This document shows, one piece after another, positions 7,121-38,303 of a stretch of DNA of 64,000 bases. The first letter of the stretch is position 1; the number at the start of each line of letters is the position of its first letter. The position numbers and the translations under genes are program-made. Under the pieces are notes generated by a model. That model made no database searches. It was not told where the DNA came from and saw nothing but the letters and a program-made list of their open reading frames with translations. The stretch comes from a candidate division LCP-89 bacterium B3_LCP (GTDB lineage Bacteria > Electryoneota > B3-LCP). The stretch is from assembly GCA_005223185.1 (NCBI GenBank), contig NJBN01000011.1, forward strand, positions 62,001-126,000. The letters run 5' to 3'.

Positions 7121-7129
7121 TTTAATTCT

Positions 7130-8390: not shown

Positions 8391-8418
8391 CCTAAAATCT
8401 CCGTAAACCGATTATATA

Positions 8419-21804: not shown

Positions 21805-21841
21805 TTTTAGATTGAATAACCGCATTATCTTAAGAGTCAAA

Positions 21842-22342
21842 ATGGAAGCAATTTTCTTCATCATACTGTCCATCATAATCATCTTTTCCAGTATGATGGT
21901 CATCCTGAAAAAGAATCCCATCGCCTCGGTGCTCTTTCTCATCCTGGCGCTTTTCAGTACCGCAGCCATGTACGTGATGCTGATGGCGCCCTTTATCGCA
22001 GCCATACAGATCATCGTTTATGCCGGAGCCATCATGGTGCTGTTCCTCTTCGTGATCATGCTGCTTAATCTGAAAAAGATCAACGAAGGCGGTGCAGTAA
22101 CGCTGAAAATTCTGGGCGTCATCGTGGCGGGTTTGATGATGGTGGTTACTGCCGTGGTACTCCGGTCGGTGGCGATTCCTGCTGATTCAGGATTCCTGCG
22201 CAGTTCCCCGGAAGGTTTCGGAACGGTGGAAAATGTGGGCATGACTCTCTTCACCACCTACCTGCTGCCCTTCGAAATCGCCAGTTTCCTTTTACTGGCA
22301 GCCATCATCGGCGCGGTCGTGCTGGCGAAGAAGAAGTTGTGA
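21842..22342 (+). CDS. nuoJ: NADH-quinone oxidoreductase subunit J
   Basis: A membrane subunit of complex I, 166 residues with five helices. The family signature AAIQIIVYAGAIMVLFLFVI includes the pi-bulge helix 3 that couples quinone chemistry to proton pumping. The ATG at 21842 with AAGAG upstream is preferred to a TTG at 21812. It is the first gene of a nuoJKLMN series on one strand. No nuoA-I genes precede it; the upstream gene is an unrelated T9SS protein on the opposite strand. Confidence 0.93.
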   Translation: MEAIFFIILSIIIIFSSMMVILKKNPIASVLFLILALFSTAAMYVMLMAPFIAAIQIIVYAGAIMVLFLFVIMLLNLKKINEGGAVTLKILGVIVAGLMMVVTAVVLRSVAIPADSGFLRSSPEGFGTVENVGMTLFTTYLLPFEIASFLLLAAIIGAVVLAKKKL

Positions 22343-22351
22343 TGAGTAGTC

Positions 22352-22379
22352 GGGAGCCAGAAGTCAGGAGTCAGAATAA
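22352..22379 (+). repeat. Degenerate AGAAGTC heptamer repeats after nuoJ
   Basis: Four in-phase seven-base units: GGGAGCC, AGAAGTC, AGGAGTC, AGAATAA. They begin nine bases after the nuoJ stop codon. Confidence 0.7.
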
Positions 22380-22384
22380 AAAAA

Positions 22385-22426
22385 GTAGGGTGGACTAAGT
22401 CCCGCCCAAGCGGGACGCAGTCCACC
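22385..22426. repeat. Dispersed GGTGGACT...AGTCCACC palindrome
   Basis: Outer arms GGTGGACT / AGTCCACC enclose a GTCCCGC / GCGGGAC hairpin. Relatives are at 25446-25474, 28390-28430 and 34778-34867. Confidence 0.7.
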
Positions 22427-22436
22427 AAGCTACAAA

Positions 22437-22471
22437 GCCAACAGCTAACAACTAACTGCCAACAGCCAACT
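22437..22471 (+). repeat. Degenerate GCTAACA heptamer repeats before nuoK
   Basis: Five in-phase units: GCCAACA, GCTAACA, ACTAACT, GCCAACA, GCCAACT, ending 15 bases before the nuoK start. Confidence 0.75.
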
Positions 22472-22486
22472 GCTACAGGAAAATAA

Positions 22487-22792
22487 ATGATAATTTCCCT
22501 AAATCACTACCTGGTTCTATCGGCGTTTCTCTTCTGCATCGGCGTGGCGGGAGTCTTAACGCGCAAGAACGCCATCATCATCTTTGCATCTATAGAACTG
22601 ATGCTGAATGCCGTCAATCTTTCCTTTATCGCCTTCGCCCGCCATTGGGGTGACGCCGGAGGGCAGATATTCGTCTTCTTCTCGTTGGTAGTCGCAGCCG
22701 CAGAAGTTGCTGTAGGTCTGGCAATCATCGTGGTCCTGTTCAGACACAAGGAAACAATCAATATTGATGACGTGAATTTGATGAGGTGGTGA
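22487..22792 (+). CDS. nuoK: NADH-quinone oxidoreductase subunit K
   Basis: A complex I membrane subunit, 101 residues and three helices, the normal family size. Both conserved glutamates of the proton path are visible, in [13 protein letters not shown] (helix 2) and [13 protein letters not shown] (helix 3). It is separated from nuoJ by 144 bases of repeats rather than the usual short or overlapping junction. Only a weak AGGAAA lies ahead of the ATG. After its stop come more heptamer repeats and the first MNT/HEPN module. Confidence 0.95.
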
Positions 22793-22805
22793 GAAATAAT
22801 AATAT

Positions 22806-22840
22806 AGAAGACAGAAGATAGAAGTCGGAATACAGAATAA
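22806..22840 (+). repeat. Degenerate AGAAGTC heptamer repeats after nuoK
   Basis: Five units: AGAAGAC, AGAAGAT, AGAAGTC, GGAATAC, AGAATAA. They are in the same position relative to the stop codon as the set after nuoJ. Confidence 0.75.
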
Positions 22841-22845
22841 AACGT

Positions 22846-22934
22846 TCTGTCAGGTCCTGTGCCGAAGACGCATGACCTGACAGTAAAGACTGGCGTCAGG
22901 TCACATCAGTCAGTTGACTGACAAGACCTAACGC
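22846..22934. repeat. Dispersed GTCAGGTC palindromes
   Basis: Nested inverted repeats TGTCAGGTC / GACCTGACA and GTCAGTTGACTGAC. The same family recurs at 50752-50803, 51326-51372 and 56068-56113. Confidence 0.65.
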
Positions 22935-22954
22935 AACAGAAAAAGGAATATCCA

Positions 22955-23245
22955 ATGAAACGCAATGAAATCTTGCGTGCTCTGGCAAGTTTTCGAAATT
23001 CTAACGAAGATGAATTTGGTATCATTCGCATCGGTGTGTTTGGTTCATGTGCCAGAGAAGAAAATACTGATACCAGCGATGTAGATGTAGTGGTTGAGCT
23101 TGCCAAACCCGATCTACTTACCCTGGTCGGAATAAAGCAGGAGTTGGAAGCGTTATTGCACAAACCGGTAGATGTCGTCCGTTACCGGGAAAGAATGAAT
23201 ACTTTTCTCAAACGGCGAATCGAACAGGAAGCCGTCTATGTATGA
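22955..23245 (+). CDS. mntA: MNT-domain nucleotidyltransferase (antitoxin), module 1
   Basis: A 96-residue minimal nucleotidyltransferase. The active site is FGSCAREENTDTSDVDVVVE, i.e. GS then Asp-x-Asp. In characterised MntA/HepT pairs this protein AMPylates a tyrosine of the HEPN RNase and so silences it. The ATG has AAGGAA upstream. It overlaps the following HEPN gene by eight bases, the usual coupling for this module. It sits in the nuoK-nuoL gap on the same strand as nuo. Confidence 0.85.
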   Translation: MKRNEILRALASFRNSNEDEFGIIRIGVFGSCAREENTDTSDVDVVVELAKPDLLTLVGIKQELEALLHKPVDVVRYRERMNTFLKRRIEQEAVYV

Positions 23246-23615
23246 TGTTGAATTGGTCAGGGAAATACTGAACCAGATCCTATTATCTACTAAGACTGTC
23301 GCCAAGCGCTTCGCTTCGATTGCATCACCTGAAGATTTCACGATTTCCGAAAAAGGGCTGGAAAAACTTGATGCTATTTGCATGCAACTGATCGCTATTG
23401 GCGAAAGCGTCAAGAACCTTGATAAAGTAACAGAAGGTAAACTGTTATCTCAGTATCCACAAGTCACATGGAATCGAGTTAAGGGGATGCGAGATATACT
23501 CACACATCATTATTTCGATCTTGATGCTGAAGTTGTATACTCAGTTTGTGACACCCACATCGAAGAGCTAGCTCAGACGATACAGCGCATGATTACGGAT
23601 TTAGAAGATTGCTGA
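23238..23615 (+). CDS. hepT: HEPN-domain RNase toxin (DUF86/HepT), module 1
   Basis: A 125-residue all-helical HEPN protein of the DUF86 family. The Rx4HxY motif is RDILTHHY, holding the RNase arginine and histidine and the tyrosine that MNT partners modify. It begins inside the end of its MNT partner. In this family the dimer cleaves RNA unless AMPylated. It is read in the same direction as nuo genes, so it may share their transcript. Confidence 0.85.
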   Translation: MYDVELVREILNQILLSTKTVAKRFASIASPEDFTISEKGLEKLDAICMQLIAIGESVKNLDKVTEGKLLSQYPQVTWNRVKGMRDILTHHYFDLDAEVVYSVCDTHIEELAQTIQRMITDLEDC

Positions 23616-23740
23616 TATAAATATAGCCTGGGGGACATGCTTCGTCTCGCCTGCAACGATCCGGGTACATGACAACTGTCGGGAGCATACTTCACGGCGA
23701 TTTTTACAGATTGCATAATCATTGTTGGGGTAACAATAAT

Positions 23741-24427
23741 ATGAAACAAAAACGCATATTTGTACCAACAGAAGGTTTTAACACTTGGAAACAGTTTCTC
23801 ACTGAACCTGACAAGCACTGGAAACAAGGATTTTCCGCTATGTCCACGGCTTTGTCTTGGGAAAAATCAGATGAACTTCCTCCAGAAATCAAAGCAATCT
23901 TTACTTCAGCAGAGGACGAGAACCTCAGAGATGCGCAACTTGTACTTGCTATTCCAGAGTATAAAGTGGTCCTCGATGGTGGTCCGCCCCCATCTCAAAA
24001 CGATGTTTTTGCTCTTGTAACATCATCTGGTGGTCTAATTGCGATGATGGTAGAAGGCAAAGCGCGTGAGGATTTCGACGTTCCGCTTGAGAAGTGGCGT
24101 CAAAGGACATCTATAAAAGGTGTCCATGAAAGGATGGCTCAAATATCAGAGAATATTGGCCTATCAGAACCTATACCAAACCATATTCGCTATCAATTCC
24201 TACACAGAACAGCCTCGGCGGTCATTGAAACCAAGCGATTTTTCGCAAGGTATGCCATAATGCTTGTACAATCATTTGTCGAAAATGATGATGAAAACCA
24301 CTTTGATGATTTCATAGCTTTTATTGAACTATACGGAAAGAAGGCAAAGAAGGGAACTCTGATTAGGCTCTATGAAAACACCAAATATCAGCTTTATGCT
24401 GCCTGGGTCCAATGCAAAATAGAATGA
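23741..24427 (+). CDS. Unknown protein with possible PD-(D/E)xK-like core
   Basis: A 228-residue soluble protein that I do not firmly recognise. It resembles what I recall as the DUF6946 family: IFVPTEGFNTWKQFLTEPDKHW at the start, then GGPPPSQNDVFALV and a strand with Glu-x-Lys (MMVEGKARE). The acid-then-ExK arrangement would suit a restriction-like nuclease fold, but that is inference. The start is ATG at 23741 (MKQKRIF); an earlier in-frame ATG at 23669 adds 24 residues of poor character. It lies directly after MNT/HEPN module 1 in the nuoK-L gap and is AT-rich compared with nuo. Confidence 0.5.
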   Translation: MKQKRIFVPTEGFNTWKQFLTEPDKHWKQGFSAMSTALSWEKSDELPPEIKAIFTSAEDENLRDAQLVLAIPEYKVVLDGGPPPSQNDVFALVTSSGGLIAMMVEGKAREDFDVPLEKWRQRTSIKGVHERMAQISENIGLSEPIPNHIRYQFLHRTASAVIETKRFFARYAIMLVQSFVENDDENHFDDFIAFIELYGKKAKKGTLIRLYENTKYQLYAAWVQCKIE

Positions 24428-24514
24428 AAACAACCCGAATATGGGTATTCACAAGATCCCAAAAGCCATTCGGTTTTTGGTCCAGGTGATGCTCACCGTT
24501 ATGTATAACAAATT

Positions 24515-25366
24515 ATGAATAGAGACAAAGCTATACAGACTTTGGTTGAAAATGCCCGAAAAATTTCCATTCAATATCAGTCAATCGTGGAAAGTTTTGG
24601 TGGTATCGTTAAAGCAAAAAAAAATAACAAAGAAATGTTCATACCCGGCTATATTCCCTATATCGGGGAAGAATATTTTGAAGCATCCACGAAAATATTC
24701 ATTTATGCTTTGAGTCAAAATCTTTCTCCAACAGATGACATTTCAATAAAATGGGCGATAAAATGGCGAGATGGGGATAAGGAAAATTATGCGATCAATC
24801 GTCAAAATATCAATTTTAAAAATCATGGCAAGGTAATGATGCAACCATTTGATACGGGCCATTTACCAGTAATTGCAGGTATATTGAATTATTTATCAAA
24901 TCCTACAACTCAAAGCAATCAGAATATTTATAAGTCTATTTCAGCAACAAACCTTTCCAAATTTTCGTTTCGGGACGGCAATAAAACAACTGATAATTCT
25001 GAAAGCTTAAAAAAATGTTTTAGATGGTTTTCCATCAAAGAGATTGAACTTCTGCAACCTGATTATATTATTTGTGCCGGAGATAAAGTTTATGATGTCG
25101 TAAAAGATAGTTTAGAAAGCACTAGCGGGCCACATCCATCTGTTATCAGAGTACGCTTTCCAAGTTTACTAGTTATTAATTCAAAGTTCAAAAAAATGCT
25201 TAAAAATGATGATGATAAAAGAGTCAAAATAATTCTATCAATATTTTCTAATTCCGTACTAAATAAAGAATCATCATACAGAAATAGAAAGAGCATACGA
25301 GAAATCATTGAAAGAGATAAAAATTACTTTGTTGCTATGTTTGATTGTATTAAAAAACAAATATGA
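24515..25366 (+). CDS. Unknown AT-rich protein, possibly uracil-DNA-glycosylase-like fold
   Basis: A 283-residue soluble protein, strikingly AT-rich beside nuoL. No sure family. Two stretches recall the UDG superfamily: an early IPGYIPYIGEEYFEASTKIF block, and LLQPDYIICAGDKVYDVV, which resembles the strand before motif 2 (LKPDVIICFG type), followed by GPHPSVIRVRFPS, where HPS is the motif-2-like turn. If so it could be a DNA-repair or defence glycosylase; this is a guess from pattern alone. No ribosome site is visible. Its ATG follows closely a CGTTATGTATAAC sequence (see findings). Confidence 0.4.
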   Translation: MNRDKAIQTLVENARKISIQYQSIVESFGGIVKAKKNNKEMFIPGYIPYIGEEYFEASTKIFIYALSQNLSPTDDISIKWAIKWRDGDKENYAINRQNINFKNHGKVMMQPFDTGHLPVIAGILNYLSNPTTQSNQNIYKSISATNLSKFSFRDGNKTTDNSESLKKCFRWFSIKEIELLQPDYIICAGDKVYDVVKDSLESTSGPHPSVIRVRFPSLLVINSKFKKMLKNDDDKRVKIILSIFSNSVLNKESSYRNRKSIREIIERDKNYFVAMFDCIKKQI

Positions 25367-25501
25367 CATATAGCAATCGCATCCACACGGTGGGTGGCAT
25401 ACATAGGCGCTACAGGAACGAAGCATGCTTGGATACTAAAATAAAATGGTGGACTAATCTTCACTAATCCACCTTTCAAATAACTTAACAAACCAAAATC
25501 A
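25367..25501. other. Short gap before nuoL with a partial palindrome
   Basis: No gene. It holds a GGTGGACTAATC / ACTAATCCACC inverted pair (25449-25474) related to the palindrome at 22385-22426, then an A/C-rich leader without a ribosome site before the nuoL ATG. Confidence 0.5.
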
Positions 25502-27481
25502 ATGCACCACGAAACCATAACTACAACACACAGCGCCCTCCTCTGGCTGATCCCCGCATTTCCATTTTTAGGAATGCTGATAAACGGCTTGCTGGGGAAG
25601 AAACAATCACCCGGCGCTGCCGGCATCTTAGCCAGCGGAGCCATGTTTCTGTCCTTCATCGTATCGGCTGTCGTCTTCTTCCAACTGCTGGGAATGCACG
25701 CCGAAGAACGCTCGCTGACCCAGACCCTTTACACCTGGATGCATGTCGGGGATTTCAGCGCCAATATCAGTTTCCTGATTGACCCCCTATCTGCCGTGAT
25801 GATCCTGGTGGTTACCGGAGTAGGATTCTTGATCCACGTCTATTCCATCGGTTACATGAAGGGTGATCCCGGAGTAGTACGCTACTTCACCCAGTTGAAC
25901 CTGTTTGCTTTTTTCATGCTTCTGCTGGTCATGGCGGACAACTACCTGCTGATGTTCGTAGGCTGGGAAGGCGTGGGGCTGTGCAGCTACCTGCTGATCG
26001 GTTTCTGGTGGGATGACATGGACAAAGCCATCGCTGGAAAGAAAGCTTTCATTGTCAACCGCATTGGAGATTTCGGCTTTCTGCTGGCTATGTTTCTGAT
26101 ATTCGTCGCCTTCGGGTCACTGGATTTCGAAACCGTCTTCGCCCGAGCGACGGGCATGCCTTACGGTTCGGGAGTGGTTACGGCTATCACGCTGCTGCTT
26201 TTTCTTGGTGCTTGTGGCAAATCGGCGCAACTGCCCCTTTACGTCTGGTTGCCCGATGCTATGGCTGGTCCGACGCCCGTTTCAGCCTTGATTCACGCCG
26301 CCACCATGGTTACCGCTGGCGTCTATATGGTTGCAAGATCGAATATTCTCTATACGTTAGCGCCGGTTTCGATGGCGGTAGTCGCCGGAATAGGCGCGGC
26401 GACAGCAATTTTCGCTGCTACTATAGGGTTGGCTCAATTTGACATCAAAAAGGTGCTGGCTTATTCCACCGTCTCGCAGTTGGGTTACATGTTCTTAGCC
26501 TGCGGAGTGGGAGCTTTCGGAGCGGGCATATTCCACCTGATGACGCACGCTTTTTTCAAAGCGCTACTGTTCATGGGATCGGGTTCCATCATCCATGCTA
26601 TGCATCATTACATGGAAAAAACCGGCAGCCACGATGATCCTCAGGACATGCGCAATATGGGTGGATTGAGAAAACACATGCCTAAAACCTATTGGACTTT
26701 CCTGCTGGCGACGCTGGCTATCGCTGGTATCCCCGGCTTCTCAGGATTCTTCTCGAAAGATGAGATATTATGGAAAGCATTTTCCAGCGGAAACATCGCC
26801 GTCTGGGTAATCGGAGCGATCGCTGCGGGTTTGACAGCCTTCTACATGTTCCGACTGGTATATATGACCTTCTTCGGAGAATTTAAACCTGCACAGAGTG
26901 GCGAACACCCCCACGAATCACCGTCAGTGATGACTGTACCTTTGATGATTTTAGCGGTTCTTTCCATCATTGGAGGCTGGGTGGGTATCCCTCACGTTTT
27001 AGGCGGCGGCAACCATATCGAGCACTGGTTCCATCCGGTTTTCGCAGGATCTGAACACATTTCGACTCTACACCAGGGGCACGGCATACATAGTTCAGGA
27101 ATTGAAATGACAGTCATGATCGTCAGTGTTTTGATCGCTCTTGCTGGAATCGGTATCGCTTACCTGTTTTACATAAAGAAGACAGACATTCCGGGTAAGA
27201 TAGTAAGCGCCATCGGACCGCTGCACAAACTGGTCTATAACAAATATTTCGTGGATGAAATTTACGAAGCTGGCGTCGTGACGCCTATTGAGAAAACCTC
27301 CGACTTCTTCCTCTGGCGCTTCTTCGACGTCAAGATCGTGGATGGTATGGTAAACGGGGCAGCAACGGTGGTTGATTTCATCGCCGGTCATCTGCGCAAA
27401 GTGCAGACCGGTTTCGTGCAGAACTACGCCCTCATCATGGGCGCGGCGGTGCTGGTGATTGTGCTGGTGTTTGTGTGGTAG
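25502..27481 (+). CDS. nuoL: NADH-quinone oxidoreductase subunit L
   Basis: The large antiporter-like subunit of complex I, 659 residues and about sixteen helices. Conserved motifs include GWEGVGLCSYLLIGFWW (with the key helix-5 glutamate), GACGKSAQLPLYVWLPDAM and HAATMVTAGVYMVAR. The C-terminal part carries the long amphipathic lateral helix followed by the last membrane helix. It pumps protons at the distal end of the membrane arm. The ATG at 25502 has no Shine-Dalgarno. Normally nuoL follows nuoK directly; here 2.7 kb of other genes separate them. Confidence 0.96.
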   Translation: MHHETITTTHSALLWLIPAFPFLGMLINGLLGKKQSPGAAGILASGAMFLSFIVSAVVFFQLLGMHAEERSLTQTLYTWMHVGDFSANISFLIDPLSAVMILVVTGVGFLIHVYSIGYMKGDPGVVRYFTQLNLFAFFMLLLVMADNYLLMFVGWEGVGLCSYLLIGFWWDDMDKAIAGKKAFIVNRIGDFGFLLAMFLIFVAFGSLDFETVFARATGMPYGSGVVTAITLLLFLGACGKSAQLPLYVWLPDAMAGPTPVSALIHAATMVTAGVYMVARSNILYTLAPVSMAVVAGIGAATAIFAATIGLAQFDIKKVLAYSTVSQLGYMFLACGVGAFGAGIFHLMTHAFFKALLFMGSGSIIHAMHHYMEKTGSHDDPQDMRNMGGLRKHMPKTYWTFLLATLAIAGIPGFSGFFSKDEILWKAFSSGNIAVWVIGAIAAGLTAFYMFRLVYMTFFGEFKPAQSGEHPHESPSVMTVPLMILAVLSIIGGWVGIPHVLGGGNHIEHWFHPVFAGSEHISTLHQGHGIHSSGIEMTVMIVSVLIALAGIGIAYLFYIKKTDIPGKIVSAIGPLHKLVYNKYFVDEIYEAGVVTPIEKTSDFFLWRFFDVKIVDGMVNGAATVVDFIAGHLRKVQTGFVQNYALIMGAAVLVIVLVFVW

Positions 27482-27495
27482 AAAGAAAAGTAATT

Positions 27496-27516
27496 CCTAA
27501 CCCCTAACAACTAACT
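27496..27516 (+). repeat. Degenerate CTAACA heptamer repeats after nuoL
   Basis: Three in-phase units: CCTAACC, CCTAACA, ACTAACT, ending 14 bases before the next start codon. Confidence 0.7.
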
Positions 27517-27530
27517 ATCAAGAGACTCAT

Positions 27531-28340
27531 ATGAGAATAATCACACTGACTATAACCATCCTCCTAATCCTCGCCTGCACCTGCAGCGCTGGAGTTCTGA
27601 TCGTAAGTAAAACCGGAGCACCGAACGAATCCGAAAGCGAGAAGAGCCAACAGCGCGCTTATCTGCAAAGCAAAGGCATGCGTATGGAATTTGAAGACGG
27701 AGATGAAGTTCACGTTGCTATTTTCCGAGCTGATAAGGACCTACTTTGGGTAATTGACAAGGATAACGGAAGCTACTTTGAGATGACCCGGGAGGATCTG
27801 CAAAAATTGAAGAAACAATTAGATGCAATGTTCAAGGAATTAGATGAGCAGATGCAGTCGATGCCTCCCGCACAGCGTGACATGATGATGCAGATGATGG
27901 GCGATAAAATACCCACCAAAGAACCCGAAATGTCCTTTAAAAAGATTGCCTCTAGCGTCAAGGTTCTTTCCTGGGTCTGCGATCATTATGAAGGGTACGC
28001 CGACGGTAAAAAGAAGGCGGAATTCTGGACTGTGAACTTTGACAAGGTTGGCATCGATAAAGACGAGTTCAAGGTGTTACAGGATATGGGTGAGTTCTTC
28101 TCAGAGATCATCCCCAATCAGTCATCCTTCTTTGGAATGTTCACAGGAGAATCCGCTGGTGGGGATAAACAGGGGATGGATTTCGGCTTACCGGTAAAGA
28201 TCGAAACCTTTGGTGACAACGGCAAAGAGTATTCAACCAATATAACTGAAGTCACCAAACACGATTGCCCGGCGTCGCTCTTCGATCTGCCGAAGGGTTT
28301 GAAAAAGGACGAAATGCCGCAGGAAACGTTTGGATTGTGA
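27531..28340 (+). CDS. Exported DUF4412-like protein
   Basis: A 269-residue protein with a signal peptide (MRIITLTITILLILACTCSA; the cysteines could make it a lipoprotein, uncertain). The body has the pattern of DUF4412/LolA-like outer proteins: AYLQSKGMRMEFEDGDEVHV, then ADKDLLWVIDKDNGSYFEMT, a methionine-rich helix MPPAQRDMMMQMMG, and VCDHYEGYADGKKKAEFW. Such proteins are periplasmic and of unknown function; a lipoprotein-carrier-type beta sheet is likely. It follows nuoL by 49 bases behind heptamer repeats. Only a weak AGAGA lies upstream. Confidence 0.6.
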   Translation: MRIITLTITILLILACTCSAGVLIVSKTGAPNESESEKSQQRAYLQSKGMRMEFEDGDEVHVAIFRADKDLLWVIDKDNGSYFEMTREDLQKLKKQLDAMFKELDEQMQSMPPAQRDMMMQMMGDKIPTKEPEMSFKKIASSVKVLSWVCDHYEGYADGKKKAEFWTVNFDKVGIDKDEFKVLQDMGEFFSEIIPNQSSFFGMFTGESAGGDKQGMDFGLPVKIETFGDNGKEYSTNITEVTKHDCPASLFDLPKGLKKDEMPQETFGL

Positions 28341-28748
28341 AACCTGTTGTGTAGCGCGGGGGCTTGCCCCCGCTGGCAATAGGCAGCAGTAGGGTGGACT
28401 AAACGAAGACGAATCGAAGTGCAGTCCACCAAAAGATAAACCCACAGCAGAGCTGTGGGGCACCAAATTACACCAAAAGCACGGGAATGAATTCCCGAGC
28501 TATTCAATTTCTGTCCCTACGGGACGTAAAGGTTTTTGAGCGCCCCGCTTAAGCGGGACAGCATAAAATTAGCCTGGAAATTCATTTCCGGGCGGATTAA
28601 AGACATTTAATTAGTGTCCGAAACCGTTGGAGGCTTAGAAAACACACCAGTCGTTTCAACGACTTTGTAGCAAATAAATTGAGCACCGGAACTTTCCCGA
28701 AGGGACTCCCTTGGAGCAGTCCGGTGCATGTACAAAGGCTAATAACAA
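28341..28748. other. Repeat-filled gap between the DUF4412-like gene and HEPN/MNT module 2
   Basis: No gene. In order: GCGGGGGCTTGCCCCCGC (28356-28373), the GGTGGACT palindrome (28390-28430), CCCACAGCAGAGCTGTGGG (28441-28459), a REP/BIME-type element (28481-28595), a GTCGTTTCAACGAC hairpin (about 28658) and a CACCGGA...TCCGGTG palindrome (28684-28727). Confidence 0.7.
28451..28729. repeat. 279-base direct repeat, copy 1
   Basis: Nearly identical to 29593-29871, with a constant offset of 1142 bases at both ends. It contains a full REP-type element (28481-28595) and ends 19 bases before the HEPN gene of module 2. Confidence 0.85.
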
Positions 28749-29153
28749 ATGCGCTTAGATTTCACATCTCTGAAAAAAGCCATAGCCAGCTTAGATCGCG
28801 CCATCCAGCGGTCTCAGACGGCTCGTGAAGACGAGGAGCTGCGTGATGCCGTCATCCAGCGCTTCGAATACACCTACGAACTCTGCTGGAAGATGCTTAA
28901 GCGTCAGCTTGAACTGGAATCGCCGAATCCAGCGCTTATAGATACTCTCTCATTCCGTGATCTCCTTCGCGAAGCTGCACAGGTTGGCATCCTGAAAGAC
29001 ATCGAAAGCTGGATGGATTATCGCCAGATGCGCAACATTACCTCGCACACTTACGATGATGCGAAAGCCCGGTCTGTATATAAAGCTGCTATTGAATTCT
29101 TCGATGATGCTTCTGCTCTTTTAAAGGCTCTGGAAACGAGAGATCATGATTAA
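28749..29153 (+). CDS. HEPN-domain protein (HI0074-like), module 2
   Basis: A 134-residue helical protein of the nucleotidyltransferase-substrate-binding (HI0074/TIGR01987-type) HEPN group. Conserved features: IQRFEYTYELCWKMLKRQLE, SFRDLLREAAQVGIL and the Rx4HxY motif RNITSHTY. In such pairs it is the RNase/toxin or the target of the nucleotidyltransferase. The gene order is the reverse of modules 1 and 3: HEPN first, MNT second, overlapping by eight bases. It lies in the nuoL-M gap between the two 279-base repeats. Confidence 0.85.
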   Translation: MRLDFTSLKKAIASLDRAIQRSQTAREDEELRDAVIQRFEYTYELCWKMLKRQLELESPNPALIDTLSFRDLLREAAQVGILKDIESWMDYRQMRNITSHTYDDAKARSVYKAAIEFFDDASALLKALETRDHD

Positions 29154-29448
29154 CCTGGATCAGGGTCACCTGGAAACTGTCAAGCGCATCTTAGCTGAAC
29201 ATGTGCCGGAGTTTGACGTGCTGGCTTTCGGTTCACGGGTTACTGAAACCGTGAAGGAGTTTTCCGATCTCGATCTAGTGATCATGACGGAAGAACCGCT
29301 GCCCCTCAGGCGCTACACTCGCCTGCTGAACGCCTTCTCTGAATCGAACTTACCCATCAAAGTGGATGTGGTGGACTGGTCGACCACAGATGAGAGCTTT
29401 CGGGTTATTATAAATAGAGGAACGGAGGTGGTGCATTCTGCCAAGTAA
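29146..29448 (+). CDS. MNT-domain nucleotidyltransferase (HI0073-like), module 2
   Basis: A 100-residue minimal nucleotidyltransferase. The active site is FGSRVTETVKEFSDLDLVIM, with GS and the Asp-x-Asp pair; a third acidic strand is KVDVVDW. It starts within the last codons of the HEPN gene (ATG at 29146). By analogy with MntA it would AMPylate and neutralise the HEPN partner. Its sequence is not close to the MNT of modules 1 or 3, so the three modules are not simple duplicates. Confidence 0.85.
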   Translation: MINLDQGHLETVKRILAEHVPEFDVLAFGSRVTETVKEFSDLDLVIMTEEPLPLRRYTRLLNAFSESNLPIKVDVVDWSTTDESFRVIINRGTEVVHSAK

Positions 29449-29922
29449 GCCTCCCGAATAAATTTCGGGAGCTCACAATATATATCCAAGTCTCTGAAGA
29501 GACTGAGAATATCCATGCTCATTGACTTCAGTCAATTGAATACCAAATGTGAGCACCGGAACTTCAGTCCGGTGCAGACTAATCCACCACAAAGCTGTGG
29601 GGCACCAGACTGCACCAAACGCACGGGAATGAATTCCCGAGCTATTCAATTTCTGTCCCTACGGGACGTAAAGGTTTTTGAGCGCCCCGCTTAAGCGGGA
29701 CAGCATTAAATTAGCCTGGAAATTCATTTCCGGGCGGATTAAAGATATTTAATTAGTGTCCGAAACCGTTGGAGACTTGGAAAATCCACCAGTCGTTTCA
29801 ACGACTTTGTAGCAATAAATTTGAGCACCGGAACTTTCCCGAAGGGACTCCCTTGGAGCAGTCCGGTGCATCAGCAAACCAAACCACAGCAGAGCTGTGG
29901 GACACCGTGCAAAGAGACAATC
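29449..29922. other. Repeat-filled gap after HEPN/MNT module 2
   Basis: No gene. It is a chain of different hairpins: CTCCCGAATAAATTTCGGGAG (29452-29472), GTCTCTGAAGAGAC (29492-29505), TTGACTTCAGTCAA (29522-29535), CACCGGA..TCCGGTG (about 29553-29575), the second 279-base repeat, and CCACAGCAGAGCTGTGG (29884-29900). Confidence 0.7.
29593..29871. repeat. 279-base direct repeat, copy 2
   Basis: Second copy of 28451-28729, with only scattered substitutions. It includes a REP-type element at 29623-29737 and GTCGTTTCAACGAC. The pair brackets the HEPN/MNT module 2 genes like the ends of a cassette. Confidence 0.85.
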
Positions 29923-30732
29923 ATGACTATCAGAAAGATTTTTTATCTAGTCGTACTCCTTCAGATATTTCAAATCAAGCTGTATGCACAATCTGATGAG
30001 ATTTACGCAAGTTACAAATATGTGATGGGGGATAACGACACTAAGAATGACGCGAAAAGAATCTGTTTTCTTGAGGCAAAACGATTGTGCATAGAAAAGG
30101 CAGGTACATATATTGAAAGCCAAACTGATGTTACTAATTGGAAGCTTACTAGAGATGAAATAAAAACCTATGCCGCTGCATTATTGAAGGTTGAAATTGT
30201 CTCCGAGGAATTGGATTTTAAAGGTGAAAGTATCTCTATATCAATGACCGTGAAAGCGGAAATTGAAAAAAACTATATTGAAGAAAAAATACGAGAGATA
30301 AAGGAGAACGACGATCTACAAATAAAGATAAAAGACCAACAAGAGAAGATAGATGAACTAGAATCTGAAATAAGAAACATACAAAATCAATTATCTACAG
30401 ATGATGTAGATGAAGTTGTAAAATTGAGAAAAAAAAGAAAAGATGCCTTTGAGAATATTGACGAATTAGAAGCGATAAAATACGAAATTAAGAAGAAAAC
30501 AAAATTAGCAGTTGAAAATATAGAACTTGGAATGACGCCGAGTGAAGTAGTTAGGCTTATTGGAGAACCTAGAGCTATTGAATCCTACGACGGTCCGAAA
30601 TACAACTATGGAAATGTCTGGGTTGTGTTCGAAAGCGGAGTTGTCTCCTGTATGATTCGTGCAAAGTATTATAATAGTGCATATAACGGGAGTTTTTATC
30701 GAGATTATAAACCGCAAGCAATTATTAAGTAG
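29923..30732 (+). CDS. Exported coiled-coil protein with BamE/SmpA-like C-terminal domain
   Basis: A 269-residue AT-rich gene. The start is ATG at 29923 (AAGAGA upstream), giving a signal peptide (MTIRKIFYLVVLLQIFQIKL) that ends near YAQ. Residues about 25-110 form an alpha-beta domain (DAKRICFLEAKRLCIEKAG) similar in style to LPP20/FlgT N-domains. Residues about 115-180 are a strong coiled coil. The last 75 carry LGMTPSEVVRLIGEPRAIE and YNYGNVWVVFESG, the usual shape of the SmpA/OmlA (BamE-like) fold. Probably periplasmic; role unknown. It lies between the second 279-base repeat and nuoM. Confidence 0.55.
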   Translation: MTIRKIFYLVVLLQIFQIKLYAQSDEIYASYKYVMGDNDTKNDAKRICFLEAKRLCIEKAGTYIESQTDVTNWKLTRDEIKTYAAALLKVEIVSEELDFKGESISISMTVKAEIEKNYIEEKIREIKENDDLQIKIKDQQEKIDELESEIRNIQNQLSTDDVDEVVKLRKKRKDAFENIDELEAIKYEIKKKTKLAVENIELGMTPSEVVRLIGEPRAIESYDGPKYNYGNVWVVFESGVVSCMIRAKYYNSAYNGSFYRDYKPQAIIK

Positions 30733-30789
30733 ACTGATTTCCAGATTTTCCATACTGTCCGGTCTTCACACCCGACAACAAAACGAATA

Positions 30790-30824
30790 ACCAATCCCTA
30801 ACCCCTAACAACTAAAACCTAACT
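30790..30824 (+). repeat. Degenerate CTAACA heptamer repeats before nuoM
   Basis: Five in-phase units: ACCAATC, CCTAACC, CCTAACA, ACTAAAA, CCTAACT, ending two bases before the nuoM ATG where a ribosome site would normally be. Confidence 0.75.
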
Positions 30825-30826
30825 TC

Positions 30827-32302
30827 ATGCTATCCTGGATAATCTTCATACCCCTGATCGCGGCGAGCGTGATCCTGCTGCTGCCGAGGGACAATAAAAG
30901 CGCCATACGCGGCGTGGCTCTAATCGCCACCCTGATTGATTTCGTCATCTGCATTCCGCTGTACTTCAGGTTCGATCCAAATACAGCAGCCATGCAGTTC
31001 GAGGAGGTCGTCAGCTGGATTCCCACAATCGGGTCCAGTTACCACTTGGGTATTGACGGCATCAGCTTCTGGCTGATCCTGCTGACTACCTTCCTGGGAC
31101 CGCTGTGCATCATCGGTTCCTGGTCATCCATCCAGAAGCGGGTCAAGGAATATCACTTCAGCTTCCTGTTTCTGCAGACCGGTATGCTGGGCGTCTTCTG
31201 CAGCCTCGATTTAGTGCTATTCTACGTCTTCTGGGAAGTGATGCTGGTACCCATGTACCTGCTGATAGGAATCTGGGGCGGACCTCAGCGGATTTACGCC
31301 GCGGTCAAGTTCTTCCTGTTCACCATGTTCGGTTCCGTACTCATGTTAGTGGCGATTCTGTGGCTCTACTTCCACAGTGCCGATCCAGTCACTGGCTTGC
31401 GCACCTTCGACCTGATGCAGATCTACGCTATGGGTAAACCTGCCGTGCAGGCGCAGTTATGGCTGTTCGCTGCTTTCGCGCTGGCGTTTGCGATCAAGGT
31501 GCCCATGTTCCCCTTCCATACGTGGCTGCCTGATGCTCACGTGGAAGCGCCCACCGCCGGATCGGTCATCCTTGCCGGCGTACTGCTGAAGATGGGAACC
31601 TACGGTTTTCTGCGTTTTGCTATGCCCTTGTTCCCCGATGCAGTGGCGCATTTTGTTCCGGTGATTTCCGTACTGGCGATTATCGGCATCATATATGGAG
31701 CCTTGGTTGCCATGGTGCAACCGGACATGAAGAAACTGGTGGCTTATTCTTCAGTTTCCCATTTGGGCTTCGTGATGCTGGGTATGTTCGCTTTGAACCA
31801 GCAGGGAGTATCCGGCAGCATCATGCAGATGTTGAATCACGGCATATCCACCGGAGCGCTCTTCTTCTTAGTGGGAGTAATCTATGAACGCCGTCACACC
31901 CGCATGATCGCTGATTACGGCGGCATCGCCAAGGTGATGCCCAAATACGCTACGGTGTTTATCATCATCGCTCTGTCATCCATCGGTCTGCCCGGCTTAA
32001 ACGGTTTCATTGGTGAATATCTGATACTATTGGGCACTTTCAAAGCGAACTGGGTGTATGCAGCATTCGCGGCTACGGGAGTCATCTTCGCGGCTGTGTA
32101 CCTGTTATGGATGATCCAGAGGGTGTTCTACGGTAAGTTGGACAAGGATGAGAACAAGGAACTGCAAGACCTCACCCTGCGCGAAAAAATTGTGCTCTAT
32201 CCGCTGGTCGCCATGACCGTGATAATGGGCGTCTATCCGCAGATGTTCCTTTCCAAGATGGAGACGTCGGTGAGAGTGTTTTTGGAGAATCTGCCGAAGT
32301 AG
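30827..32302 (+). CDS. nuoM: NADH-quinone oxidoreductase subunit M
   Basis: An antiporter-like complex I subunit, 491 residues and about fourteen helices. Key stretches are [20 protein letters not shown] (helix-5 glutamate), [19 protein letters not shown] and [18 protein letters not shown] (conserved lysine). It pumps one proton channel's worth in the membrane arm. No Shine-Dalgarno precedes the ATG, which instead directly follows the heptamer repeat. Separated from nuoL by 3.3 kb of accessory genes. Confidence 0.96.
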
Positions 32303-32406
32303 TTGTTAAGCGGAGGACGGACATTCTTGTCTGTCACTACCCAATAACTTAAAGGATGCCCCCAGCCCTGCTGTGGGATGGTTAGCTTAAACCGAAATGA
32401 AAATTC

Positions 32407-32736
32407 ATGACAAACAAAAAGACGAAAGAATTAATAGCGAAGAAAATCCGTGAGGAGTTTAACAAGCGTGGCTTGGAAGTCAGGAAATTGATCCTCTTCG
32501 GTAGCCGCGTGCGGGATGAAGAACACAAGCACAGCGATTGGGATTTTCTGGCCATAACCGATCGCGAAGTAGATTGGTCGGAAAAACGGGAGATTTGGTA
32601 TTCGCTTTCCTTGTATCTGGCACAAAAGGACATCTCAGCAGATATCTTAATAAAATCTGAAGAGGAATTCAACCGCGATAAAGTTGACAAAGGTAAAGTG
32701 ACCTATTATGCCAACAAAGAAGGGGCGCGCGTATGA
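32407..32736 (+). CDS. MNT-domain nucleotidyltransferase, module 3
   Basis: A 109-residue minimal nucleotidyltransferase. The active site is LFGSRVRDEEHKHSDWDFLA (GS, then Asp-x-Asp), with DISADILIK as the third acidic strand. It overlaps the next HEPN gene by four bases (ATGA). The N-terminal KKIREEFNKRGLEVRKLIL helix-strand is typical. It lies in the nuoM-N gap. As with the other modules, its probable role is to modify and restrain the HEPN partner. Confidence 0.83.
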   Translation: MTNKKTKELIAKKIREEFNKRGLEVRKLILFGSRVRDEEHKHSDWDFLAITDREVDWSEKREIWYSLSLYLAQKDISADILIKSEEEFNRDKVDKGKVTYYANKEGARV

Positions 32737-33140
32737 ACCCGGATACCATACGGAATTGGACGATCAAAGCCGAGCATGATTATAAAATAGGATTAAACGA
32801 ATTCCGTTCGGAGAAGCCTGTCACTGACATGATCTGTTTTCATATGCAGCAGTGTGCAGAAAAGTATTTGAAGGCTTATCTCGCGTATAACGATATTGAA
32901 ATAAATAAAACCCACGACCTTGCTGTGCTATTGAAGGATTGTATGGCGGTGGATGATTCTTTCAGAGTTTTATTAGATAGGAAAGTCCCGATGCTGACGC
33001 CTTACGGTACTGTCATCCGTTATCCTGACGATTTCTATATGCCGACTTTGAAAGAAACAGAAGAAGCTATCTCCTTAGCTGAAGTAGTTAGGGATTTTGT
33101 ACGTGAAAAGTTCAAATCCACCGGATTTAAGTTGGAATAG
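32733..33140 (+). CDS. HEPN-domain protein, module 3
   Basis: A 135-residue classical HEPN-domain protein: FHMQQCAEKYLKAYLAYNDI followed by KTHDLAVLLKDC, then IRYPDDFYMP. This is the Pfam HEPN subgroup rather than the DUF86 (module 1) or HI0074 (module 2) subgroups. I do not see a clean Rx4HxY motif, so RNase activity is less certain than for the other two. It shares a four-base overlap with its MNT partner. Confidence 0.8.
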   Translation: MNPDTIRNWTIKAEHDYKIGLNEFRSEKPVTDMICFHMQQCAEKYLKAYLAYNDIEINKTHDLAVLLKDCMAVDDSFRVLLDRKVPMLTPYGTVIRYPDDFYMPTLKETEEAISLAEVVRDFVREKFKSTGFKLE

Positions 33141-33260
33141 AACTCTTTAATACGTCAATGACACCGGCATGACAATACCGAGTGTCATCCCGGCGGAACA
33201 GCCGGAATCCAGGTTTGTTTTGTATAGGTTGGGTTAAGCACAGAAACCTGTGAGGAGAGG
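33141..33260. repeat. Short gap with dispersed palindromes
   Basis: Contains a GTGTCATCCCGGCGGAACAG / CCGGAATCCAGG-type repeat (about 33180-33213) and a half copy of the GGTTGGGTTAAGCACAG repeat (33226-33242). Confidence 0.5.
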
Positions 33261-33845
33261 ATGTATCAAATACGAATTAGTGTATTCATCATATTTATGA
33301 TTTCTTTGACTTCGTACGCTGCGGAATATGAGCTTGATCAGAATTCAGTCGAGATCAGTGGCATGGGGTATTTCACCTATACTAAAAGTGAAGGCTCTAT
33401 GTACGGAATTACCGATAATGAAAATCATACTGAATTTTATCTATCACCCAGCGTCCATTATTTCATAATTGAGAAGCTTACTTTAGGGGGTACATTAGAA
33501 TTCTATTCTGATGATGTCAGCAACGGCAGTCATCAATCAGCAATAGGATTTGGGCCCACAGTGCAATATTTTTTCGGGAATAAAAACATCAAACAGTATC
33601 CCTTCGTTGGAACGACGGTAAGCTTTAAACTTACATCCTTGACGGCAACTGATTTATCTAAATACAGCGCATCCGAGGTTAGTTATAAAATATTTGGCGG
33701 ATACTTTCTCAAGTTAATTGATCATTTTGGAATTAAAATAGCTCCTTTCTATAAAGCAGAGCGTCATACTTCTGGAGAAACCGATGAAACTGCCACCAAT
33801 ACATCTTATGGTATTGAATTTGGTTTCTCAGGGTTTATTTACTGA
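33261..33845 (+). CDS. Outer-membrane beta-barrel protein, about 8 strands
   Basis: A 194-residue protein with a signal peptide (IRISVFIIFMISLTSYA) and alternating amphipathic strands (FYLSPSVHYFIIEKLTLGGT, AIGFGPTVQYFFG, FPFVGTTVS-like). The final strand ends in an aromatic, GIEFGFSGFIY, as needed for BAM-dependent insertion. The size suits a small eight-stranded barrel of the OmpW/OmpA-barrel type. It is AT-rich, has a GAGGAGAGG ribosome site, and lies alone after HEPN/MNT module 3 in the nuoM-N gap. Function unknown. Confidence 0.65.
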   Translation: MYQIRISVFIIFMISLTSYAAEYELDQNSVEISGMGYFTYTKSEGSMYGITDNENHTEFYLSPSVHYFIIEKLTLGGTLEFYSDDVSNGSHQSAIGFGPTVQYFFGNKNIKQYPFVGTTVSFKLTSLTATDLSKYSASEVSYKIFGGYFLKLIDHFGIKIAPFYKAERHTSGETDETATNTSYGIEFGFSGFIY

Positions 33846-34059
33846 ATTTGCCCTGGTGCCCCACAGCTCTGCTGTGGGTAAGGTAAATTACAAGTGTTGT
33901 TGACTCCCCGCAGTCAACAGCCGGGATTATCCCAGTAATGTCATTCTGGCATTGTCCAGAATCTGACATTGCGCCGTCAGATTCCCGACGTAGCGGGAAT
34001 GACGGCTATTATGAAAAGGGCAGAAAATCCTACCGCATAAAAACGGGAGGAGGAAAACC
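33846..34059. repeat. Gap with dispersed palindromes
   Basis: Contains CCCACAGCTCTGCTGTGGG (33861-33879), the TTGACTCCCCGCAGTCAA-type hairpin (about 33900-33917) and ATTCCCGACGTAGCGGGAAT (33982-34001). Confidence 0.6.
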
Positions 34060-34734
34060 TTGAAAAGATCATTAATTATAAAAGCTTTGCTGCTGGGTAT
34101 AGCCATTGCCGTGCCCGCGCTCTATCTGTCAAGACTTACGCCACTGAATTCTACCAGCTTTCCCCCCAAGTCATTGGTGACGCACAGCATCATGGCATTG
34201 GCGGCGATCATCCTGGCGTATCGCTTTAGCAAGGGCAAGCTGGCAGATTACGGCTTCACCCGGGGCTCTTTTCGCCTGAAGCCGACGATTTTCCTGTGGG
34301 CTTTGCCAACAGCCTGCCTTTCAGTTTTGCGCTATGTCGGTGTGGGTTCAGAAGAAACAAGCTTCTCCACTATAATCCATGACATCCTGTTCATCTGGAT
34401 TTGGGCCAGCACCTGCGAGGAGATCCTGACCAGAGGCTTATTGCAGAGCTACTTAGCACCGCTGAGAGACCGCCGGGTGCGTATTTTCTGGAAGTGGCCC
34501 ACCAGCATACCGGTCATTTTCAGCGCGCTGTTCTTCGGATCTATGCATATTGTGCTCGTAACGAAAATAGGACCAGCCGTGATTGGTCCGATGGTATTCG
34601 CCACGGGTCTGGGGTTTGTGGCTGGTCATTACCGGGAGAAGACCGGTAGTTTAATTCCGGCGATACTCATACACGCTTTGTTCAACGTGGGCGGGATGCT
34701 GCCATTCTGGATTTTGTGTGGAGTTTTGGGGTAG
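34060..34734 (+). CDS. CPBP-family intramembrane metalloprotease
   Basis: A 224-residue membrane protease of the CAAX/Abi (CPBP) family with about seven helices. The metal and catalytic motifs are present in order: CEEILTRG (EExxxR-type), FFGSMHIV (FxxxH) and HALFNVGG (HxxxN-type). Bacterial members process or protect membrane peptides, and some give immunity to bacteriocins. The start is a TTG at 34060 with a strong GGGAGGAGG six bases upstream. Substrate unknown; the genes on both sides are unrelated. Confidence 0.85.
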   Translation: MKRSLIIKALLLGIAIAVPALYLSRLTPLNSTSFPPKSLVTHSIMALAAIILAYRFSKGKLADYGFTRGSFRLKPTIFLWALPTACLSVLRYVGVGSEETSFSTIIHDILFIWIWASTCEEILTRGLLQSYLAPLRDRRVRIFWKWPTSIPVIFSALFFGSMHIVLVTKIGPAVIGPMVFATGLGFVAGHYREKTGSLIPAILIHALFNVGGMLPFWILCGVLG

Positions 34735-35146
34735 GATTGCAGAATGTAGAATGTGGGTTGGGTTTAGTATAGTGGCGTAGGGTGGACTAAGTCCTGGCTT
34801 GTCGGGATGCAGTCCACCGAGTAAATAATTCTAATTGGTGGACTGCGCTACGCTTTAGTCCACCCTACTTAAACTGATGACACTAATTAGGTAATCTGTG
34901 CAATCAGCGTAATCAGCGGTTAAGACAAGAATACACCAAAGCATAAAACCCACAGCAGAGATATGGGGCACCGGAACGCACCAGTCGTTTTAACGACTTT
35001 GTAGGAATAAAACTGAGCACCGGAACTTTAGCCCGGTGCGTAATAAAATGTTGGGTTGTCCCGAAGGGACGGCTTCGCCGCACTTTGCTTAACCCAACCT
35101 ACGGGACTGGACTAAGGAGGCTTACGCCCATTCCACCCGTTGCCCA
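34735..35146. other. Repeat-filled gap after the CPBP gene
   Basis: No gene. It contains two AGAATGT heptamer units (about 34738-34752), a long GGTGGACT / AGTCCACC inverted array (34778-34867), CCCACAGCAGAGATATGGGG (34948-34967), GTCGTTTTAACGAC (about 34984), CACCGGA...CCCGGTG (35018-35038) and a GTTGGGTT...AACCCAAC palindrome (35050-35100). Confidence 0.65.
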
Positions 35147-35887
35147 ATGATAGGTATTGAAATGATTGAATTGATAGGACTCATTGCATCAATAATTGCG
35201 ATAATCGGTGCATGTATCACAGCAATCAGAAAAGGATTATTTAGCGCTACTATACGACAATCTCGAGATTATAAAAGGATTTGGGATGACATTGAAGATT
35301 CCTATATTTTATGGCGTGAACGTGGTTTCTCTGGAAAAAGCGATGCATTTATTACACGTTTAGAAAAATTAGATAAAATCAACGAATTTCGATACAAGTT
35401 ATGTAAAGAAGTTGCCCCAAAAACTCTATCGTTCATTATGAGAAACGCAATTCAAAACGGAAAACGTGGGAATTGGGGTTTCTGGTTAGAGCAGAACAAT
35501 AATAATATATATGCCCTTCCAACAGTCTTTACTGCTCTTGACGGTGCAGGTTACGAGAGACCCAAATGGAGAGCAGGGCTAATCCTGCAATTCCTAGGAA
35601 AGCAAAATTGCACAATAGTATTTAACCATCTCGATGGTTTAATCGATTTAAATCCAGAATTCAAAGCCCTATTATTAACAGGTAACGTTGCTTCGGTGAC
35701 AGTATTTATTAAAAATCGCATAAATGATGCTGATGTAAATTTGACTACAAAGGAAAACGCGATTGAAGTACTGCGTGAATATGATATTTATGAATCTCAG
35801 ATAAAAATATTTATAGATTCTCAAGTTAAATTGATAAATATGAATCGAATCAGATATCAATTTCTCAATAAAGATTTTAATAATTGA
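35147..35887 (+). CDS. Unknown AT-rich protein with N-terminal membrane helix
   Basis: A 246-residue protein I do not recognise. One hydrophobic helix (LIGLIASIIAIIGACITAI) at the N-terminus is followed by a soluble, largely helical body with a tryptophan-rich patch (GKRGNWGFWLEQNNNNIYAL) and a long repeated-helix C-terminal half. The topology suggests an inner-membrane anchor with a cytoplasmic domain. There is no Shine-Dalgarno, and a second ATG 15 bases later is an alternative start. It is visibly more AT-rich than nuoM and nuoN on either side, which suggests import. Confidence 0.5.
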   Translation: MIGIEMIELIGLIASIIAIIGACITAIRKGLFSATIRQSRDYKRIWDDIEDSYILWRERGFSGKSDAFITRLEKLDKINEFRYKLCKEVAPKTLSFIMRNAIQNGKRGNWGFWLEQNNNNIYALPTVFTALDGAGYERPKWRAGLILQFLGKQNCTIVFNHLDGLIDLNPEFKALLLTGNVASVTVFIKNRINDADVNLTTKENAIEVLREYDIYESQIKIFIDSQVKLINMNRIRYQFLNKDFNN

Positions 35888-36081
35888 TATTAATATGCCA
35901 TCTAGCCCCCGCACTCGATTGGTAGAACACCCGCACTGTCAGGTTCGGAGACTTGTTAGCACGTTCAATCATCGTAATCAGTAGTTAAGACAAGAAAAAC
36001 ACCAAAGCATAAAACCCACAGCAGAGCTGTGGGGCACCCTACAATGGCCTTGACAGTAAATGTAGGCGAGAGGAGATTCTC
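35888..36081. other. Gap with dispersed palindromes and a cassette-like boundary
   Basis: No gene. It has CTAGCCCCCGCACT...GGAGACTTGTTAGCACG (35911-35964), loosely like an integron attC end, and CCCACAGCAGAGCTGTGGG (36014-36032). Confidence 0.4.
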
Positions 36082-36678
36082 ATGGAAAATAATATCAATC
36101 TCACAAAACTCATTGAGGAATTCAAAGAGATCAAGAAAGAACATCGTAGATTAATTATTCAAAAATCTGCATTAGTTGTGCCTGGCTCTTCTGTAATTAG
36201 GGTATTTGAGAAGGAGACAAAAGATGATATAGTAAGTGTTTTGCAGAAAATTCCAATGGATAAATTAAGAAACTTAGATAATGAAACAGGCTTTAAATCA
36301 TGGTTTGAAGAGCAATTGGATAAGATTACACGCGCTCTTAAGAAAAGGAATAGAAAGAATACGCGTGTTAATCCAGGAATAAAATGGGGTCACGCCGCTA
36401 AAATACTGAATTTATCTTTACGTGATCTTGTGGTTGATTTAAGAATTTTCGATACGAAAACTACCAAACGGCTAATACCCTGGTTATATTGTCCCATAGA
36501 TGGAATTATTATGCGGAAAATTCAAGGGCTTGGGTATTCTCTGCCTTACAAAGGGATTAAGAATATCGATAAGAAGTTTTTTTATAACATACAAAATCTT
36601 CTAGGGGAAGCTGCTAAACAAGCAAATTTTCATCGTGTATACTTCGATTATAATTGGATACAGCAGCGTGAAAAATAA
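36082..36678 (+). CDS. Unknown AT-rich protein
   Basis: A 198-residue soluble, basic, mostly helical protein without a family I can name. Visible features are a charged N-terminal helix (KLIEEFKEIKKEHRRLIIQK), a basic stretch (ALKKRNRKNTRVNPGIKWGH) and HAAKILNLSLRDLVVDLRIF. The second half has YCPIDGIIMRKIQGLGYSLP, which could be a small nucleic-acid-binding fold. It has a good GAGGAG ribosome site. It sits in the nuoM-N gap and its AT-rich composition resembles the genes at 24515 and 35147. Confidence 0.5.
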   Translation: MENNINLTKLIEEFKEIKKEHRRLIIQKSALVVPGSSVIRVFEKETKDDIVSVLQKIPMDKLRNLDNETGFKSWFEEQLDKITRALKKRNRKNTRVNPGIKWGHAAKILNLSLRDLVVDLRIFDTKTTKRLIPWLYCPIDGIIMRKIQGLGYSLPYKGIKNIDKKFFYNIQNLLGEAAKQANFHRVYFDYNWIQQREK

Positions 36679-36767
36679 TCACCTAAAGTATCATCCAGCA
36701 GGGTGCCCCACCGCTTGTGGTGGGATAGATAAACGGGTCGGCACAAGACCGACCCCTACGCGAATAA

Positions 36768-36795
36768 ACTAACAGCTAACTGCTAACAACCAACT
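36768..36795 (+). repeat. Degenerate CTAACA heptamer repeats before nuoN
   Basis: Four in-phase units: ACTAACA, GCTAACT, GCTAACA, ACCAACT, ending ten bases before the nuoN ATG. Confidence 0.75.
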
Positions 36796-36805
36796 ACTAT
36801 AAACC

Positions 36806-38271: not shown

Positions 38272-38303
38272 AAAAACGCCGGTTTCTACTGGCGCTTTTT
38301 TTG
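38272..38303 (+). terminator. Terminator after nuoN
   Basis: AAAAACGCC and GGCGCTTTTTTT arms around GGTTTCTACT, ending in seven T, 24 bases after the nuoN stop. Confidence 0.65.

Follow-up and report, generated by a model that had tools for sequence, protein, structure and literature searches.

Most descriptions of toxin-antitoxin modules concern plasmids, islands and chromosomal sites that lie scattered. The present study deals with three predicted modules of this kind, each a pair of a HEPN gene and a nucleotidyltransferase (MNT) gene, which lie between the complex I genes nuoK, nuoL, nuoM and nuoN of the candidate division LCP-89 bacterium B3_LCP (GCA_005223185.1), in a stretch of 64,000 nt on contig NJBN01000011.1 (positions 62,001 to 126,000, forward strand; hereafter the window, to which all positions refer unless another locus is named). 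HEPN/MNT pairs have been divided into class I, in which the HEPN protein belongs to PF01934 or PF08780, and class II, in which it belongs to PF05168 and the RX4HXY motif is missing (PMC7641770). In the Shewanella pair, MntA transfers AMP to a tyrosine of HepT (PMC7641770); a HEPN toxin of Legionella (8XDJ) has been described as well, and the HEPN toxins described so far have broad activity against tRNA, rRNA or mRNA (PMC11586414). As to position within housekeeping operons, Thermus thermophilus HB8 harbors an MNT-HEPN pair inside its lysine operon, which strain HB27 is without (PMC2701414), and apart from this report our literature search for nuo or housekeeping operons that contain toxin-antitoxin genes yielded nothing relevant.

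The locus analyzed here is probably best understood as an insertion-tolerant nuoJ-N operon, in which three independently acquired, ordinary type VII HEPN/MNT modules and a number of accessory genes have become co-directional cistrons, in a lineage that loads its core operons, and complex I above all, with such genes.

Identity of the three modules

Pfam searches retrieved nuoJ, nuoK, nuoL, nuoM and nuoN in the usual order on the + strand (21812-38248), and the three modules at 22955-23615, 28749-29448 and 32407-33140, as the first-pass annotation had reported; its subfamily labels (DUF86 HepT type, HI0074 type in reversed gene order, classic HEPN) proved correct. The K-L, L-M and M-N gaps (2.7, 3.3 and 4.5 kb) each hold one pair of a different subfamily, but that annotation had overlooked eight additional accessory genes which share the gaps, and the modules are thus only part of the inserted load (Table 1). 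A tandem duplication of one module was ruled out, since the three pairs represent three different families.

Modules 1 and 2 belong to class I: a PF01934 or PF08780 HEPN stands beside a PF01909 MNT, RX4HXY is intact in the HEPN protein (RDILTHHY in HepT1, RNITSHTY in HEPN2) and GSX10DXD in the nucleotidyltransferase (GSCAREENTDTSDVD in MNT1, GSRVTETVKEFSDLD in MNT2). The two genes overlap by 8 nt in either module, with HEPN2 ahead of MNT2 in the second. Module 1 resembles HepT/MntA of Shewanella oneidensis (SO_3166/SO_3165, type VII) in its PF01934 and PF01909 domains and in both intact motifs, whereas it differs in lying between nuoK and nuoL and in its scores of 33.0 and 43.3 bits for the NCBIfam HepT_toxin and MntA_antitoxin equivalogs, which do not reach the curated cut-off of 60 bits and hence mark it as a divergent member of this type. 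Module 2 is of the kind known from HI0074/HI0073 and from the Legionella HEPN-MNT pair (TIGR01987 with 110.5 bits over a curated cut-off of 55.8; 1JOG, E 4e-25; 8XDJ, E 4e-14), but is placed between nuoL and nuoM with composites of repetitive extragenic palindromic (REP)-like elements on both sides. Module 3 belongs to class II, with a PF05168 HEPN beside a GSX10DXD nucleotidyltransferase and without RX4HXY, which was looked for in HEPN3 and found absent; its only solved relative is a distant one (1WOL, E 3e-4). By analogy with the Shewanella and Legionella pairs, the HEPN proteins would be RNases or RNA-binding toxins, kept silent through adenylylation of a HEPN tyrosine by the MNT partner.

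In the source genome (3.79 Mb; G000 below) six HEPN-MNT pairs were counted, besides a solitary MNT-like match. Three of the six pairs are found within 10.2 kb, for which the probability is about 5e-4 for any such cluster and about 1e-6 for the present cluster, had it been specified beforehand; as the locus was picked for its odd look, the former is the fairer figure. Clustering by chance alone is therefore unlikely.

Junctions of nuo genes in related genomes

Families are numbered f1 to f8 here, f1 comprising G000 to G005 and f7 G015. The K-L gap of f1 measures 31-280 bp in the five relatives and is enlarged in the source genome only, while the L-M gap spans 0.9-4.4 kb in all five measurable genomes. 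M-N gaps, measurable in four genomes, extend over 1.8-5.5 kb in each of them; nuoA-I of f1 genomes holds inserts too. L-M gaps of f2 reach 3.3-8.2 kb where measured, and in G025 at least 5.9 kb follow nuoL up to the contig end without nuoM. In f7, HicBA shares an L-M gap of 1.2 kb with a Y1 transposase-like gene, and a DNA methyltransferase lies in a K-L insert of 2.0 kb. Thus nuoL|M is interrupted in every measurable genome of f1, f2 and f7. In families f3-f6 and f8 the genes stand close together (L-M below 0.5 kb). Of about 78 outside loci nearly all are likewise compact: nuoL|M is interrupted in none of them, and the exceptions are a pair of M-N gaps about 2 kb long.

The cargo varies. HicBA occurs in nuo gaps of G001 and G004 and YbjQ in those of G001 and G003; nuo gaps of G031 contain DarTG and a PD-(D/E)XK protein, methyltransferase-like genes are present in G011 and G031, and Y1 transposase-like genes occupy an L-M or M-N gap in G001, in G004 and in G015. 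Several gap genes are common to different genera at 50-79% identity, which, together with the differing cargo, marks the L-M slot as an accessory site of long standing whose contents turn over. With one site, varying cargo and empty outgroups, nuoL|M has the attributes of an insertion hot spot. The preferred landing place that had been proposed for the three gaps hence stands in modified form, supported by this junction and by complex I at large with its roughly tenfold excess of HEPN matches (see below).

Two further gap contents were observed. A pair whose sequences read like the sugar nucleotidyltransferase and kinase MurU/AmgK is common to several f2 genomes (nuoL-M gaps L057, L059 and L061). 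A DUF6036-like nucleotidyltransferase is found between nuoD and nuoE in G003 (L317, 5003-5461) and between nuoL and nuoM in G001 (L044, 7341-7790), the two being 56% identical and representing a further nucleotidyltransferase type that moves from one complex I site to another.

Age and composition of the inserts

In the NuoM tree f1 and f2 each form a clade, f1 branching as (G002,(G004,(G000,(G001,G003)))), and the f1-f2 branching fits one as well as several origins of the loose operon. The set of three modules is not conserved: only the L-M pair recurs, in one relative (G001), at the same site and with 80/71% identity of HEPN2/MNT2. For HEPN2 the ratio of nonsynonymous to synonymous substitutions (dN/dS) between G000 and G001 is about 0.085, compared with 0.10 for nuoN, both being rough figures owing to high dS. 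A further homologue in G004 (70/70% identity) sits between a major facilitator superfamily (MFS) gene and a dedA-like gene.

Host genes have a mean guanine-cytosine (GC) content of 0.474 with a 5th percentile of 0.422. Below this percentile are HepT1, HEPN3 and the DUF6946, uracil-DNA-glycosylase-like, 303-aa, barrel, 246-aa and 198-aa genes; MNT1 and MNT3 (0.44) are under the host mean but within the host range, and HEPN2/MNT2 is host-like. To judge from these sequence data, the K-L insert is new (empty site in five relatives, low GC) and the L-M module is old (common to G001, under purifying selection), so that an old resident and newer arrivals are united in one operon.

Modules in other operons and their bearing on function

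HEPN-MNT pairs were likewise found at other sites (flanking genes other than nuo, atp and the Pfam-checked NuoD were named by reading translations, not by family search). They lie in atpB|atpE of G005 and atpH|atpA of G025, in nuoC|nuoD of G031, after nuoC and again before nuoM in G025, in porA|porB of G002, and in rsmI|lgt of G004, two genes that are adjacent in G001; gyrB|gyrA of G005 (L311, G005:C41) holds a nucleotidyltransferase-like gene, an MNT-HepT pair and another MNT. At the L|M junction of a second complex I, G022 and G025 possess a HEPN-MNT pair and G031 a HepT; these modules are of two types, and that of G022 is only 31-37% identical to the others, which suggests repeated acquisition at one junction. 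The second complex I of the source genome (L067, G000:C7:612000-628000) also has extra genes in K-L and L-M (3906-4409, 6923-8422), and a 220-aa extra gene there appears HEPN-like by eye, with no Pfam match.

Among 12 genomes, 9 of the 78 HEPN matches fall in complex I loci, about ten times the 0.9 expected from length (P about 2e-4 when counted as six independent events), as do about 7 of 91 HicA matches; in the compact families none of 17 PF05168 matches lies in the main nuo cluster. The ribosomal S10-spc operon, taken as a control, is tightly packed in every f1 genome, where it carries no such modules, and almost as tightly in f2, with atp intermediate. The occurrence of the same module types in many operons points to a general habit of these lineages, most pronounced in complex I, and not to nuo-specific control.

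The enrichment, and the persistence of the L-M pair under purifying selection across two genera, could be taken to mean that the three pairs are dedicated to complex I, controlling nuo mRNA or stabilizing the operon, as the first-pass annotation had suggested. This is very unlikely, however: the K-L and M-N modules are missing at those sites in relatives, the L-M pair has its G004 homologue away from nuo, the same types occur in unrelated operons (atp, por, gyr) and other modules such as HicBA and DarTG occupy the same nuo slots, described HEPN toxins hit their RNA targets broadly (PMC11586414), and the operon of a core enzyme such as complex I is in little need of addiction. Clustering was to be regarded as incidental if relatives had an uninterrupted nuoJKLMN and the modules lay scattered elsewhere at equal density; of these expectations, an unbroken K-L junction in relatives and a scattered distribution of the modules were observed, whereas an equal density was not.

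A selected placement in both nuo and atp would follow if the pairs acted as energy-coupled growth switches. The MNT, made only with the respiratory operon, would need ATP to silence HEPN, and operon failure or ATP shortage would set the HEPN RNase free; we hold this to be highly improbable.

Merely neutral loosening, by which any insert is tolerated between nuo genes and toxin-antitoxin modules are common cargo without benefit from the site, would agree with the many gap genes of other kinds (membrane proteins, the MurU/AmgK-like pair, methyltransferases, barrels), with the inserts in nuoA-I and atp and with the dispersed REP-like elements that crowd intergenic space. Over-representation of HEPN and HicA in complex I relative to genome length and purifying selection on the L-M pair speak against it, although both are compatible with a neutral position, and we regard this explanation as unlikely.

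Repeats, borders and transcription signals

Two 300-nt composites of REP-like palindromes, of which about 45 partial copies exist genome-wide, flank HEPN2/MNT2, and a 23-nt direct repeat (22 of 23 positions identical, equalled in 0 of 500 shuffles) brackets the entire L-M insert. The cluster contains the core motif of this repeat, CTAACNNCTAAC, at four sites, and 400 kb of background contained it once. Both kinds of repeat, and the Y1 transposase-like genes in relatives, would be expected if REP palindromes and RAYT-like (REP-associated tyrosine) transposases provided homology by which modules are exchanged as cassettes between spacers. Yet a bracket of the 23-nt type was found neither at the other two gaps of G000 nor in relatives, and the L-M pair is older than the split of G000 and G001, so that the REP repeats may be later duplications; cassette exchange is accordingly considered quite improbable. 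Direct repeats were also rejected as a general signature of insertion, being confined to the G000 L-M gap.

Some observations on these elements may be added. Heptamer-like arrays (CTAACAACTAAC) at 22437-22475, 27492-27514, 30793-30815 and 36753-36794, near-absent from the 400 kb background, stand directly upstream of nuoK, nuoM, nuoN and the gene after nuoL, and related heptamers are present in nuoK-L spacers of relatives. Dispersed REP-like palindrome families occupy spacers at 22384-22440, 28388-28464, 34776-34832, 34926-35046 and 35992-36038, most of them terminator-like stems for the minus strand. A gene at 8732-9163 of the window reads like an IS200/RAYT (Y1) transposase; G001, G004 and G015 have similar genes in their nuo gaps.

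In a consensus scan the terminator-like stems of the cluster spacers face almost only the minus strand, and the sole strong + strand candidate follows nuoN. This pattern is compatible with read-through across nuo and the modules, which would then be transcribed from nuo up to that terminator. Promoter-like sites are not commoner than in shuffles, and Rfam gave no match in the window.

Coordinates are compiled in Table 1. For the 303-aa gene the codon model prefers a start at 29923; the 246-aa and 198-aa low-GC genes are candidates for accessory or defence genes without a family match.

Table 1. Features of the nuoJ-N cluster and its gaps (positions in the window)
Feature	Position	Strand	Evidence or remark
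nuoJ, complex I membrane subunit	21812..22342	+	PF00499 E 2e-38
nuoK	22487..22792	+	PF00420 E 1e-30
MNT1, MntA-like nucleotidyltransferase antitoxin (predicted)	22955..23245	+	PF01909 E 7e-14; PADLOC PDC-S09
HepT1, HEPN toxin (predicted)	23238..23615	+	PF01934 E 3e-19
DUF6946 gene (K-L gap)	23669..24427	+	PF22187 E 9e-71
Uracil-DNA-glycosylase-like gene, GC 31% (K-L gap)	24515..25366	+	weak: PF03167 E 0.0016, below cut-off
nuoL	25502..27481	+	PF00361/PF00662
23-nt direct repeat, left copy	27492..27514	+	after nuoL, upstream of DUF4412 gene
DUF4412 gene (L-M gap)	27531..28340	+	PF14371 E 2e-8
300-nt composite of REP-like palindromes, copy 1	28434..28733	+	93% identical to copy 2
HEPN2, HI0074-type HEPN toxin (predicted)	28749..29153	+	PF08780 E 7e-42; TIGR01987; PDB 1JOG E 4e-25
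MNT2, nucleotidyltransferase antitoxin (predicted)	29146..29448	+	PF18765/PF01909
300-nt composite of REP-like palindromes, copy 2	29576..29875	+	93% identical to copy 1
303-aa gene, GC 36% (L-M gap)	29821..30732	+	weak BamE-like match
23-nt direct repeat, right copy	30793..30815	+	directly upstream of nuoM
nuoM	30827..32302	+	PF00361 E 5e-79
MNT3, nucleotidyltransferase antitoxin (predicted)	32407..32736	+	PF18765 E 2e-11; GSX10DXD intact
HEPN3, PF05168-type HEPN (class II)	32733..33140	+	PF05168 E 3e-21
Outer-membrane barrel-like gene (M-N gap)	33261..33845	+	PF13557 E 9e-7
CPBP/Rce1-like protease gene (M-N gap)	34060..34734	+	PF02517 E 4e-16
246-aa gene, GC 34% (M-N gap)	35147..35887	+	no family above cut-off
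198-aa gene, GC 33% (M-N gap)	36082..36678	+	no family above cut-off
nuoN	36806..38248	+	PF00361 E 3e-75
Terminator-like stem-loop after nuoN	38277..38294	+	consensus scan

Discussion

The best reading of the locus is that HEPN/MNT modules are mobile units settling in insertion-tolerant operons. It does not imply any control of nuo, and a dedicated respiratory role found no support. Modules in such positions would be expressed with the core operon and would be hard to lose cleanly, which may account for their retention. Several points weigh against this interpretation. No mobile element or integration site accounts for the arrival of the modules; the enrichment in complex I rests on estimated operon lengths, inserts included, and on few independent events; and the toxicity of HEPN3 is less sure as RX4HXY is missing. 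Moreover, all gap genes of the source genome and 60 of 60 called in relatives are co-directional with nuo, but as a background 85% of neighbouring genes of the source genome share a strand and only 4-10% of interior genes are opposed, and co-orientation is for this reason only modest evidence; as strong proof of co-transcription it was dropped.

As in the lysine operon of Thermus HB8, the same kind of module appears here as a strain-specific insertion in a housekeeping operon. Whereas the published precedent for such nesting is that single operon (PMC2701414), insertion in the lineages studied here is recurrent, affects many operons and involves several toxin-antitoxin types in related families. 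Several families of one phylum thus carry diverse modules between the genes of core energy operons, and an old selected resident and new arrivals beside empty sites in relatives constitute a natural series, which allows the question to be asked whether nesting in core operons retains toxin-antitoxin modules and couples host and module.

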